DNA of 55,066 nucleotides from Kushneria aurantia DSM 21353 (GTDB lineage Bacteria; Pseudomonadota; Gammaproteobacteria; Pseudomonadales; Halomonadaceae), in the NCBI RefSeq assembly GCF_000382245.1, contig NZ_KB907885.1:1-55066 (forward strand), read 5' to 3'. Positions 43,635-47,472 of the stretch are shown in pieces (the stretch's first letter is position 1; every line of letters starts with the position of its first letter). The translations under genes and the position numbers were made by a program. Under the pieces are notes generated by a model. It saw only the letters and a program-made list of their open reading frames with translations, had not been told where the DNA came from and ran no database searches.

Positions 43635-44516
43635 CTACTCGTCGCGCCTCGGTGCGGCAATGACACGCCCGTGCCTGCCCGCCAGGCGTCTGTCCTGCCC
43701 CGAACGACGCCCGCCGCGTCTGGCCTGACCGGCCAGCTCGGCAATCAGCGACTGCTCCGGCAGGTGCTGCCAGAAGCGTGCCGGCATGCTGCGCCGCATG
43801 CACTTCTCGTTGACCCGTGAGGGGTTGAAGGTGCTGGCGTAGTAGGCCAGCCATAGCGCTTCGCCCTCGTCCTCCAGGGTCAGCAGAGCGCGGTAATCGT
43901 CGTGACAGAATTGCCGCGCCGGCCGCTCGATGTGCCATGCCCGGCCGTCGCAGCTGATCGCCCCTCGGGGCGTCATGATCAGCCAGCTGTGCCGGCCCAT
44001 ACGCTGAATGAAGTGTTCGGCGGCGTCGGCCAGCACCTCATGACGCGGCTCGAACCAGGCGATGAACGCCGGGCCGCTGTCGGCATCCTCCTCTCGGTAG
44101 CGCCGCTGAAAGCGCAAAAAGGCGTGCATGTGATGGGCCTCGTGGTCGACCGCTCGCGCTCGCCGTGCCAGTTCGGCGCCGTCCGTGTCGCCGGCCAGCA
44201 GGGCTTCGCCTTCTCCCAGTGCCAGTCGCCAGACGACGCGATAAAGCAGCGACCAGCCACACTCCCGCTGTGGCTCGATACAGTAGCGCGAGGCGCGCTC
44301 CAGCTGCGCCAGCGCGCGGTGTGTCAGCCGCGGCTTGAGCGCGGCGCCAGAGGGATCGGGCAGGGGCGTGTCGGCATCGGCAAAGAGGTCGCGCTCACCA
44401 ATGCCGTTTTCAAACAGCACCGCCTCCGGCGGCAGACGCCGTGCCAGCAACTGGCGTGCATGTTCGCGCCAGCAGTCGAAATGGGGGTGCTCGAGGCGCA
44501 CGGTATACAGGGTCAC
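43635..44516 (-). CDS. DUF4130 protein, partner of a putative DNA modification/repair radical SAM enzyme (TIGR03915-like)
   Basis: A 293-residue protein: LARRLPPEAVLFENG, VWRLALGEGEALLAGDTDGAELARRARAVDHEAHHMHAFLRFQRR, WFEPRHEVLADAAEHFIQRM, and ALWLAYYASTFNPSRVNEKCMRRSMPARFWQHLPEQ with a short Arg-rich tail. This is the DUF4130/TIGR03915 type, which occurs next to TIGR03916 radical SAM proteins. The exact chemistry is not established. It starts 35 bases after the radical SAM gene and probably shares its LexA-controlled promoter. Confidence 0.85.
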   Translation of the reverse strand: MTLYTVRLEHPHFDCWREHARQLLARRLPPEAVLFENGIGERDLFADADTPLPDPSGAALKPRLTHRALAQLERASRYCIEPQRECGWSLLYRVVWRLALGEGEALLAGDTDGAELARRARAVDHEAHHMHAFLRFQRRYREEDADSGPAFIAWFEPRHEVLADAAEHFIQRMGRHSWLIMTPRGAISCDGRAWHIERPARQFCHDDYRALLTLEDEGEALWLAYYASTFNPSRVNEKCMRRSMPARFWQHLPEQSLIAELAGQARRGGRRSGQDRRLAGRHGRVIAAPRRDE

Positions 44517-44551: not shown

Positions 44552-45763
44552 TTACAGCAGCGGCATCTGCGCCGGCGGCGGTGCCAGCCTTGCGCGCAGG
44601 GCATGGTTGTCAAGGCCGGCGTCGCGTGGGCGGTAGTCGCCGGTGGTGATGAAGGGGGCGAGCTTTTTCATCGAGCAGCCCAGCCGAACCAGGTCGTCAT
44701 AACGGATATGACGCTCGCGGCGCAGCGCCACGATGCGCTGGGCGCTGCGCAGGCCGATACCCGGCACCCGGGCGATCATGCGGGTCTCGGCGCGGTCGAG
44801 ATCGACCGGGAAGTGCTCCCGGTGGCGCAGTGCCCAGCCGAGCTTGGGATCGATCTCCAGCGACAGATTGCCGGGGCCGTCGAGCAGCTCATCGGCGCGA
44901 AAGCCGTAGCTGCGCATCAGAAAATCGGCCTGATAGAGACGGTGCTCGCGCAGCAGTGGCGGGGCGCTGTGCGGCACCGTGCCCGGGCTTTCGGGGATCG
45001 GCGAGAAGGCAGAGTAGTAGACCCGTTTGAGGCGGTAGTCGCGGTAGAGACGCTGGACGTTGCCGAGAATGGTGTGGTCGTCGACCGTATCGGCGCCGAC
45101 AATCATCTGGGTGCTCTGGCCGCTGGGCGAGAAACGCGGCGCGCGCGGCTCGGCATCGGCCTCGCCGAGGCCGTCGCGGATGGTGCCCATGGCGCCGTGG
45201 ATGCGCGCCTCACTCTTCTCCGGGGCGAGCTTTTCAAGGCTCTGCACCGTGGGCAGCTCGACATTGACGCTCAGTCGGTCGGCGTAGAGGCCCGCCTGGC
45301 GGATCAGCTCCGGCGAGGCTTCGGCAATCGTCTTGAGGTGGATATAGCCGCGGAAGTTGTGTTCAAGGCGCAGGGTTTTCGCCACTCGTACCAGCGCCTC
45401 CATGGTGTAGTCGCTGGAGCGGATGATGCCGGAGCTCAAAAAGAGGCCGCTGATGGTGTTGCGGCGATAGAAGTCCAGCGTCAGCCGTATGATCTCGTCA
45501 ACGCTGAAGCGCGCCCGCGGCACGTTGCTGGAGCGCCGGTTGATGCAGTACTGGCAGTCGTAAAGGCAGAAGTTGGTCATCAGAATCTTCAGCAGCGACA
45601 CGCAGCGGCCATCCGGCGTGAAGCTGTGGCAGATGCCGGTGCCGTTGGTAGCACCGAGCCCTTCACGCCCCTTCGATGAGCGCCGCGGCGCGCCACTGCT
45701 GGCGCAGGAGGCGTCGTACTTGGCTGCATCGGCAAGGATGATCAGCTTGTCGGCAAGCTCCAT
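44552..45763 (-). CDS. Putative DNA modification/repair radical SAM protein (TIGR03916-like)
   Basis: A 403-residue radical SAM enzyme. KYDASCASSGAPRRSS opens the family pattern; the iron-sulfur motif is CLYDCQYC (C-x3-C-x2-C, about residues 70-77), followed by INRRSSNVPRARFSVDEI. VPGIGLRSAQRIVALRR near residues 340-360 is a helix-hairpin-helix, which suggests DNA contact. The start is ATG 45763, preceded by GGAG; an ATG four codons upstream has no SD. A consensus LexA box 18 bases upstream implies SOS induction. The substrate is unknown. Confidence 0.9.
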   Translation of the reverse strand: MELADKLIILADAAKYDASCASSGAPRRSSKGREGLGATNGTGICHSFTPDGRCVSLLKILMTNFCLYDCQYCINRRSSNVPRARFSVDEIIRLTLDFYRRNTISGLFLSSGIIRSSDYTMEALVRVAKTLRLEHNFRGYIHLKTIAEASPELIRQAGLYADRLSVNVELPTVQSLEKLAPEKSEARIHGAMGTIRDGLGEADAEPRAPRFSPSGQSTQMIVGADTVDDHTILGNVQRLYRDYRLKRVYYSAFSPIPESPGTVPHSAPPLLREHRLYQADFLMRSYGFRADELLDGPGNLSLEIDPKLGWALRHREHFPVDLDRAETRMIARVPGIGLRSAQRIVALRRERHIRYDDLVRLGCSMKKLAPFITTGDYRPRDAGLDNHALRARLAPPPAQMPLL

Positions 45764-45781
45764 GAACGGCTCCATTCGTAA

Positions 45782-45797
45782 CTGTATTTATATACAG
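45782..45797. promoter_or_regulatory. LexA (SOS) box
   Basis: CTGTATTTATATACAG matches the gammaproteobacterial LexA consensus CTGT-(AT)n-ACAG with full CTG/CAG arms. It lies 18 bases before the start codon of the radical SAM gene, where bound LexA would cover the promoter. Confidence 0.92.
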
Positions 45798-45809
45798 TAA
45801 ATGGCGCGC

Positions 45810-45832
45810 AAGCTTTCGGCAATTGAAAGCTT
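45810..45832 (-). terminator. Hairpin between the PPTase gene and the LexA-controlled unit
   Basis: AAGCTTTC and GAAAGCTT form a perfect 8-bp stem around a seven-base loop directly after the PPTase stop. On the minus strand no T run follows, so it is a weak terminator or 3'-end stabiliser. Confidence 0.45.
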
Positions 45833-45833
45833 T

Positions 45834-46565
45834 TCATTTCTGCGCTGGAGTTGCGGCGACCATTACTGCCGTCAGCGCCTGCTGACGGGCGTCGCAAAAA
45901 TCTCCTGCGACTTCGCTGCCCGCCGGCCAGTCGGCATTCAGCGCGCTGCACAGCGCCAGCCGGCAGCGTCCCGGCAGGGCGAGCGGGTCGAGGTCGATAA
46001 CGCGCGCATCATGGAAGTAAAAGCGTACCCCGGTCAGCGGGTAGAGCGCCTTGTAGAGGCTCTCCTTGAGTGAGAAGACGAGCGTGACGGCGCGGGCGAA
46101 GGCGTCCGGTGATAGACCGGTCAGCGCTTCCAGCTCCTCCCGGTGCAGAATCGAAGGGGCGAGATAGCGCGCCCGTTCGGCGCCCAGCCACTGCTCGGCG
46201 TCCAGCCCGAGGGCGCAGTACTCCGAACCCGGTGCGACCAGCGCACCGGCGAGGCTTCTGGAGTGGGTAATGGCGCCGCAGTAGCCCGGCGGCCAGTCGA
46301 CGCGGCGGTCGGGCAGGCTTTCCAGCGCGCCGGGGGCAGCATCCAGCGCTGCCAGCGCCGCCCGGGCGCAGAGCCGGCCGGCGAGATATTCGGCGCGTCT
46401 TTTGGCCACCGCCCGCGCCAGCGCAGCGGGTAGCGATACGCCGTGGCGGCCGAAGGCGGCGTCGTCGAAAAGGCTGCTGTCGAAGGGCGCCAGCGCCAGC
46501 TGCGTGGCGCTTTGAGGAGTGTCGAACGGCCAGCAGCACTCGGCTGGTGCGATGAAATCCGTCAT
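45834..46565 (-). CDS. 4'-phosphopantetheinyl transferase (EntD/Sfp type)
   Basis: A 243-residue enzyme that attaches phosphopantetheine to carrier proteins. WPPGYCGAITHSRSLAGALVA, ALGLDAEQWLG (metal-binding D-x-E region) and VFSLKESLYKALYPLTG (catalytic FxxKExxxK) are visible. No NRPS or PKS gene is in the window, so its carrier protein target lies elsewhere. Starts 10 bases after the LpxO-like gene and likely shares its transcript. Confidence 0.92.
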   Translation of the reverse strand: MTDFIAPAECCWPFDTPQSATQLALAPFDSSLFDDAAFGRHGVSLPAALARAVAKRRAEYLAGRLCARAALAALDAAPGALESLPDRRVDWPPGYCGAITHSRSLAGALVAPGSEYCALGLDAEQWLGAERARYLAPSILHREELEALTGLSPDAFARAVTLVFSLKESLYKALYPLTGVRFYFHDARVIDLDPLALPGRCRLALCSALNADWPAGSEVAGDFCDARQQALTAVMVAATPAQK

Positions 46566-46575
46566 CGGTGGTTGC

Positions 46576-47472
46576 TCACAGCGTCAGCAGCCACATCACA
46601 ATGCCGCCGAAGATCAGCCACTTGATAATGTAGTAAAGCGTTTTGTTCTTCTTCTTCAATCGCTTGCCCAGCTCGCGCACCTTATAGATGTACTTGAAGG
46701 CGCGATTGATGCCGCCGGTGTGGTCGCTTTCGTCGTTGGGCGAGGCCGCGGCAGCCATCACGTTGCGACTGAACCAGCGGTTGACCGCCCCGGCCCAGCG
46801 ATACTTCATGGGGCGCTCGATATCGCAGAACAGAATCAGGCGGTCCTGCTCGCTGTCGTTCCGGGCATAGTGAATGAAGGTTTCATCGAACAGCACCGCC
46901 TCGCCGTCGCGCCAGCTGTAGTCGACCCCGTCGACATTGATGCGGCAGCGGTCGTCGTTGGGCGTGCGCAGACCAAGGTGATAGCGGATCGAGCCGGCAT
47001 AGGGGTCGCGGTGCTTCATCAGCGTGCTGCCGGCGGGCAGCTCGGCAAACATTGCCGCCTTGACGCTCGGAATGCCGGCGAGAATCTCGGTGGTCCGCGG
47101 GCAGAGCTGACGGGCCGACTCATGGCTGTCGCTGTACCACTTGAGATAAAAACGCTTCCAGCCGCGGCGGAAGAAGGAGTTGAAGCCGGCATCATCCTTG
47201 CTGCTGGATCCCTTGATATGGCTCTCCAGCGCCAGCGCCTCGTCGCGAATCTCCTCCCAGTGCGCGGTGATCCCGGCGATGTCGGGGAAGTCCTCTTCGC
47301 GATGGTAGGGGCGGTCGGGCACCTTCGAGAAGAGATACATGAAGCCGTTGATCGGCGCCATGAAAGTGGAGTGATCCGACAGTTGGCGAAACGGCCTGTG
47401 GCGCACCCGGCCACGAAAATGCACATAGAGAATGCTGGCCACCACCAGTGCCACGATGGTCCATTTGATCAT
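46576..47472 (-). CDS. lpxO: Aspartyl/asparaginyl beta-hydroxylase family protein, LpxO-like
   Basis: A 298-residue Fe(II)/2-oxoglutarate dioxygenase with membrane anchors at both ends (IKWTIVALVVASILYVHF; LYYIIKWLIFGGIVMWLLTL). LPAGSTLMKHRDPYAGSIRYH, INVDGVDYSWRDGEAVLF and DETFIHYARNDSEQDRLILFCDIERP hold the His/Asp iron ligands and the 2-oxoglutarate Arg. LpxO hydroxylates a secondary acyl chain of lipid A at the inner membrane. The start is ATG 47472 (MIKWTI); the longer frame upstream has no membrane-like or conserved content. Confidence 0.88.
   Translation of the reverse strand: MIKWTIVALVVASILYVHFRGRVRHRPFRQLSDHSTFMAPINGFMYLFSKVPDRPYHREEDFPDIAGITAHWEEIRDEALALESHIKGSSSKDDAGFNSFFRRGWKRFYLKWYSDSHESARQLCPRTTEILAGIPSVKAAMFAELPAGSTLMKHRDPYAGSIRYHLGLRTPNDDRCRINVDGVDYSWRDGEAVLFDETFIHYARNDSEQDRLILFCDIERPMKYRWAGAVNRWFSRNVMAAAASPNDESDHTGGINRAFKYIYKVRELGKRLKKKNKTLYYIIKWLIFGGIVMWLLTL

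Follow-up and report, generated by a model that had tools for sequence, protein, structure and literature searches.

The window analysed here, a 55,066-nucleotide stretch of Kushneria aurantia DSM 21353, carries on its minus strand a radical SAM gene of the TIGR03916 family and a DUF4130 gene, preceded by a LexA box. We consider it rather probable that the two genes form a LexA-repressed pair, whose radical SAM enzyme and DUF4130 protein act on DNA nucleotides that are damaged or wrongly built, with UdgX as an accessory. Judged from the sequence, control of this two-gene operon by LexA is very likely. The operon family to which the unit belongs, as a variant, is known but uncharacterised.

The LexA box and the upstream DNA

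The earlier note on this DNA had placed a consensus LexA box 18 bases before the radical SAM gene, and both the box and the distance were found as described. The box, TACTGTATATAAATACAGTT, lies on the minus strand at 45780-45799, with its core 16-mer at 45782-45797 (CTGTATTTATATACAG when read on the plus strand, CTGTATATAAATACAG on the gene strand), and the gap to the radical SAM ATG at 45763 is 18 bp. No other site in the 3.75 Mb genome matches the E. coli-type LexA consensus as well. Compared with the 20-mer consensus TACTGTATATATATACAGTA it has two mismatches, and 100 shuffles of the window gave no match with three mismatches or fewer. Genome-wide, only two places reached that level, the window box and one other (three mismatches), the latter being upstream of a short LexA/UmuD-like gene that is itself under the lexA cut-off. 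The lexA gene of this genome (TIGR00498, 243.6 bits) has its own box, CTGT-N8-ACAG with one mismatch, 12 bases ahead of the ATG.

The CTGT-N8-ACAG pattern by itself was not enriched in the genome (25 sites versus 32 for the reversed control), and two or more such sites were present in 12 of 100 window shuffles. As this pattern alone is not rare, the flanking and central bases of the box matter. The other CTGT-N8-ACAG of the window (44268-44283) is inside the DUF4130 gene and was set aside, two sites per window being within chance. The lack of enrichment would fit a functionless box, present by chance or by inheritance. We regard this as extremely unlikely, since the box is the best consensus match of the genome, since it stands as a conserved block in an alignment of nine genus rows whose surrounding upstream DNA is mostly variable, and since the motif ahead of the operon varies between classes in step with the LexA motifs given per class in the available passages of PMC8565304 and PMC6595937.

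A second upstream block, around AATGCAATTCAGTTG, is present in seven of the nine genus rows, the window and L027 being the two without it. By eye, the alignment also offers a possible promoter, TTGCCG-17-TACTGT (45794-45822, minus strand), whose -10 element would fall inside the LexA box; the consensus promoter scan did not report it. Immediately upstream of the box is a 10-pair inverted repeat, AAGCTTTC...GAAAGCTT (45810-45832), with a terminator-like score on the plus strand, and no plus-strand gene was seen to end at it. There is no convincing gene divergent from the box. The sole plus-strand ORF listed (45801-46073, 90 aa) is nearly all antisense to the upstream neighbour, a phosphopantetheinyl transferase gene that runs in the same direction as the operon (45834-46565, minus strand). 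Two genes upstream lies lpxO, encoding a lipid A hydroxylase (46576-47472, minus strand; 516 bits, cut-off 500).

Damage-response motifs upstream of related operons

The operon is common and its damage control is very consistent, and we found no known substrate for it. Genomes with a TIGR03916 score above the cut-off numbered 25 of 121 in the family sample, 11 of 369 in the class sample and 84 of 398 in the phylum sample; these samples overlap, and the locus set takes in part of the 84 phylum-sample loci. To these were added 80 named loci, the best 80 of 588. Two groups of genome-search loci were placed in the Halomonadaceae and the Xanthomonadaceae by reference to the named loci L131 and L152, respectively.

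The earlier note had tied its proposal of SOS control to conservation of the LexA motif in related genomes and had suggested scoring the upstream regions of TIGR03916 homologues. In the family sample, the box was ahead of the operon at each of the 25 loci, those of 24 relatives and that of the window, 21 of them with 8/8 core bases and four with 7/8, and DUF4130 was behind the radical SAM gene in all 25. For the wider set, the alphaproteobacterial LexA motif was scored as GAAC or GTTC twice, 7 apart. Among 183 loci, 56 had the exact gamma/beta motif, 94 the exact alphaproteobacterial motif, 18 the gamma motif at 7/8 and five a Xanthomonadaceae palindrome, and 10 had none; an exact gamma or alpha motif was thus present in 150. 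(L096 repeats L044; it was counted in the 184-locus set and dropped from this motif count.) Because one genome can be repeated among the loci, as in L022 and L131, we also counted 112 non-redundant loci (<86% identity), with 24 gamma 8/8, 70 alpha 8/8, seven gamma 7/8, three palindrome and eight without a motif.

The control set of 930 upstream regions of other ORFs from the 112 loci contained three gamma 8/8 and six alpha 8/8 motifs and no palindrome. Exact motifs were found in background windows of the named loci in 5/2398 (gamma) and 21/2398 (alpha) cases. Compared with these controls, the motif counts indicate that most loci have the LexA motif of their own class ahead of the operon, and the SOS control proposed for the pair is strongly supported by this comparison. 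The absence of motif conservation that the earlier note had set as a refutation was not observed. A gamma match at 7/8 is weak by itself, as 48 of the 930 control regions reach 7/8 or better; the 18 loci of this type include a Verrucomicrobium (L185), in which one would not expect the gamma motif. The 10 motif-less loci are L035, L038, L044, L091, L093, L135, L139, L172, L178 and L188. Four of them come within one mismatch of a motif, namely L135, L172 and L178 of the alpha motif and L091 of the Xanthomonadaceae palindrome. Convergent gain of the box after gene transfer was not supported: the gamma/alpha type changes once on a quick tree, which has many weak branches, and four times on a careful tree.

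Two groups of loci are unusual. In L028 and L029 the best box is ~95 bases upstream, at least ~55 further than in other family members, and L028 apparently has two overlapping boxes. L044/L096, from the order of the window, scores 659 bits with TIGR03916, compared to 528-590 in the other genomes over the cut-off; its protein is 50% identical to that of the window and sits on a long tree branch, and none of the tested motifs is upstream. Perhaps this locus was transferred from another phylum or is a contamination.

The radical SAM protein

The radical SAM gene (45763-44552, minus strand) encodes 403 amino acids. An alternative ATG exists upstream at 45775; the start at 45763 is favoured by the family alignment A1 and by a GGAG six bases ahead. 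The assignment to TIGR03916 made from the sequence was borne out, as the profile (rSAM_link_UDG) gave 544.5 bits against a curated cut-off of 343.5 and the CLYDCQYC cluster motif is present (C66, C70, C73; 45545-45568, minus strand). The general Radical_SAM model was narrowly under threshold (29.4 versus 29.5 bits). The span 44552-45797, first given for the whole unit, covers the box and this gene; the DUF4130 gene is outside it.

Only six cysteine columns are conserved in the family, the CX3CX2C triad and C20, C45 and C54, each in 182/182 proteins (the usable proteins came from 182 of the 183 other loci). L114-L193 were picked by peptide patterns that include a DGRC motif, so that C54 was partly selected there; the genome-search loci were found by profile. 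The stretch with C20, C45 and C54, together with H46 (45602-45706, minus strand), holds candidate auxiliary Fe-S ligands, and the three invariant N-terminal cysteines suggest an auxiliary cluster in this protein. Lipoyl synthase and MiaB use three N-terminal cysteines for such a cluster. The structure model has a mean pLDDT of 84.9, with residues 20-44 below 50, too low for it to show how the extra cysteines are arranged. C20, C45 and C54 offer a direct mutational handle on the auxiliary cluster.

Among the best 50 of 70 fold matches at E <= 0.001, the leading ones were HydE, a methyl-coenzyme M reductase glutamine methylase, lipoyl synthase, MiaB, HydG, pyruvate formate-lyase activating enzyme and biotin synthase; MiaB, RlmN and viperin are all present in these 50. 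HydE, lipoyl synthase, MiaB and biotin synthase are like the window's protein in fold, but they act on other substrates and reach a TM of only 0.35-0.43 by query length, and we know of no HHH region in any of them.

A C-terminal helix-hairpin-helix had also been read from the sequence, and this stood in part. The region (44809-44714, minus strand) gave weak ComEA and RuvA HHH matches, and the model has helices within it, at residues 327-331 and 338-348; the PF12836 match, however, is sub-threshold (19.5 bits against the Pfam threshold of 27). We treat the region as a candidate DNA-binding module that probably binds DNA.

A radical SAM protein under SOS control could also be an SplB-like enzyme, one that reverses a UV photoproduct directly by splitting thymine dimers without a strand cut. 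The two share the radical SAM class, and the literature links SplB to the SOS response; the available part of PMC3765255 ties DUF4130, termed there a predicted mutagenesis-related enzyme, to SplB-like radical SAM photolyases. In sequence no match to spore photoproduct lyase was found, the family profile having hit 21 PDB entries (E up to 10) of which none is this enzyme. Nor is it listed in the best 50 of the 70 fold matches (E <= 0.001). The window's family, moreover, has three extra invariant cysteines and a DUF4130-type partner, which to our knowledge are not features of spore photoproduct lyase. We therefore judge direct photoproduct reversal to be quite unlikely.

The DUF4130 partner and the missing UdgX

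The partner gene (44516-43635, minus strand) begins 35 bases after the radical SAM gene, as the earlier note had it, and encodes a DUF4130 protein of 293 aa that is well over the cut-offs of TIGR03915 (177.6 bits versus 112.25) and PF13566 (118.6 versus 27). The model of this protein (mean pLDDT 82.8) had no Foldseek match at E <= 0.001. A relationship to DHH/RecJ proteins, proposed by the first Foldseek matches (PAP phosphatase, RecJ-type), was rejected with E >= 0.08 and TM <= 0.28 by query length, and the PDB gave two weak sequence matches (E 0.022 and 0.57). The co-occurrence of the two families, which the earlier note had given as known, was confirmed by counting: a DUF4130 match is downstream of the radical SAM gene in 182 of 184 loci, including L102, where it is 2.8 kb away. 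Of the two misses, L165 is at a contig end, and L099, with no DUF4130 match within 2.9 kb downstream, is real at the sensitivity of the search.

In 116 of the 184 loci, some of the rest being too short to show it, DUF4130 is fused to a C-terminal domain of UdgX (TIGR03914), a glycosylase that crosslinks to uracil sites. Nine partner proteins were scanned; TIGR03914 was over its cut-off in five (fused), and the other four were standalone. Twelve fused domains that we inspected had GEQPG in all 12, the crosslinking-histidine loop in 11 and HPS in nine. Profile scans of the window's 293-aa protein, in contrast, found no UDG domain, and UdgX was not found in the window's genome, where the only PF03167 match is Ung. 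Other Gammaproteobacteria (such as L075, L083 and L114-L116) also keep the box, with no UdgX within 3-4 kb downstream. Two trees, one of 112 proteins and one of 111, each require no fewer than 10 changes of the fused state (in the latter 81 fused, 17 alone and 13 not counted). Since UdgX is fused to its partner in so many loci and absent from the window's genome, we take the conserved core to be the radical SAM gene plus DUF4130. The persistence of operon and box without UdgX, here and in other relatives, likewise argues that UdgX is the accessory and the radical chemistry the core.

These data also bear on the proposal that the unit belongs to uracil-DNA glycosylase base excision repair, with the radical SAM and DUF4130 proteins serving UdgX, for example by resolving UdgX-DNA crosslinks. 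The fusion in 116 loci would suit such a service, as would the covalent bond that UdgX forms with abasic DNA according to the available part of PMC10359453. A genome without UdgX, however, keeps both genes and gives them its best LexA box, the gammaproteobacterial loci named above do likewise with their boxes, and UdgX has come or gone at least 10 times on the tree. This proposal thus appears unlikely. The UdgX-less form is useful in that it separates core from accessory, and the window's strain, or a Pseudomonas with DUF4130 alone, would permit a lesion search free of UdgX crosslinks.

Relation to published operons

We take COG4277 to be the TIGR03916 radical SAM family. On this equation, the window's unit shares its radical SAM family and its SOS control with the COG1573-COG4277 operon. 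For that operon, the available text of PMC8565304 states SOS control in Bacteroidetes, cites it for Verrucomicrobia and Alphaproteobacteria (Caulobacter), and describes a uracil-glycosylase repair system. For an operon that is probably the same one, regulation by the SOS response has thus already been published in other groups and is not new here. The difference is that the published operon is described by its uracil-DNA glycosylase, whereas the window's unit has DUF4130 and no UdgX; with UdgX missing and at least 10 changes of the fused state, the published description misfits the UdgX-less variant. Within the open-licence literature we did not find this variant or the invariant cysteines in that published work, nor any paper that names TIGR03916 or TIGR03915, or that treats UdgX together with a radical SAM protein.

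Related statements exist elsewhere. The accessible part of PMC6595937 mentions, as data not shown, that a betaproteobacterial genome has SOS boxes ahead of radical SAM proteins and of 'DNA modification/repair proteins', and those of PMC7739468 and PMC9380542 place radical SAM proteins, family unstated, under LexA in Gram-positives, Balneolaeota and Streptomyces.

Two other readings of the operon were considered and dropped. It had no PADLOC match that would point to anti-phage defence. Plasmid matches came to 158 records, of which 142 were classed as non-mobilizable. Matches in the phage collection numbered 10, eight of them faecal 'Bacteriophage sp.' and two of one Acinetobacter phage; given this make-up, we do not read the operon as a phage or plasmid system.

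Proposed mechanism

In the mechanism that we propose, LexA would repress the two-gene operon until the SOS response releases it. The first gene would supply a radical SAM enzyme that has the [4Fe-4S]/SAM site typical of its class and whose N-terminal stretch with three further cysteines probably holds a second metal cluster and whose C-terminal HHH region probably contacts DNA. The 5'-deoxyadenosyl radical would attack the lesion or the sugar of the lesion, and DUF4130 would recognise the substrate or complete the step. Where it is fused to DUF4130, UdgX would covalently trap uracil or abasic positions at the same site.

In our reading DNA is the probable substrate, ahead of RNA or a nucleotide. 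In favour of the role in DNA repair or modification suggested in the earlier note are the SOS control, the HHH region, the near-constant DUF4130 neighbour and the fusion to UdgX in relatives. An SOS-induced modification of RNA or of the nucleotide pool would be compatible with the fold, which is as MiaB- or viperin-like as it is DNA-enzyme-like: MiaB, RlmN and viperin are among the listed matches, and the HHH match is sub-threshold. Such a role is nevertheless very unlikely in our judgement, considering that the partner is fused to the DNA-trapping UdgX in 116/184 loci, that control is by the SOS response and that the model has helices in the HHH region.

A more specific version of the DNA-directed mechanism, which we put forward tentatively as possible rather than probable, is that the operon encodes a widespread, SOS-induced radical SAM enzyme with an auxiliary Fe-S cluster near its N-terminus and a DNA chemistry new to repair, DUF4130 being a new partner fold and UdgX an optional trap. 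The chemistry would then be a radical removal or rewriting of the damaged base or sugar, or possibly, by analogy with lipoyl synthase and MiaB, an insertion of atoms.

A palindrome ahead of Xanthomonadaceae operons

Six Xanthomonadaceae loci have neither the gamma nor the alpha LexA motif. In five of them (L036, L095, L150, L152, L174) we observed an exact GTCTCA-N5-TGAGAC palindrome that ends 22 bases ahead of the start codon; the sixth is L091. In each of three genomes from a single genus the exact palindrome occurs three times, and the reversed control not at all. Six of these nine sites were typed: two are before uvrA, two before the radical SAM/DUF4130 operon, one before a TIGR03817 helicase gene and one just behind a PA0069-family radical SAM gene. 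When one mismatch was allowed, the same genomes gave 16, 12 and 9 sites (control 0). Among eight such regions, three have the site ahead of a gene, which is another PA0069-family member (at a distance of 22 bases), a TANGO2-like gene and a match-less gene, respectively; one is the site at L243, and four are inside an ORF (L256, L258, L259, L260).

The exact palindrome was present in 41 of 60 Xanthomonadaceae genomes, the listed reversed control being 0 in each. Thirty palindrome loci listed from these 60 genomes comprise 11 at the helicase, five at the radical SAM/DUF4130 operon and one at recA (Pfam, 454 bits); the remaining 13 matched none of the four query genes, and two of them seem, by eye, to precede mraZ. 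A literature search by paper listing did not find a regulator of this palindrome. In two searched genomes of the genus, lexA carries TTAGTAGTAATACTACTAA, the known type, instead of the palindrome. The palindrome looks like the mark of a second DNA-repair regulon that holds the operon and is not purely of repair genes, and this may possibly be a LexA-independent DNA-damage regulon.

Further palindrome loci, from the set upstream of uvrA, the helicase, the PA0069-family gene and recA, are L200, L204, L205, L213 and L255. At L243, the gene-strand upstream DNA of a LexA/UmuD-like gene has both TTAGTAATTGTACTAA and the one-mismatch GTCTCG-N5-TGAGAC, ~26 bases apart, possibly two damage motifs on one promoter.
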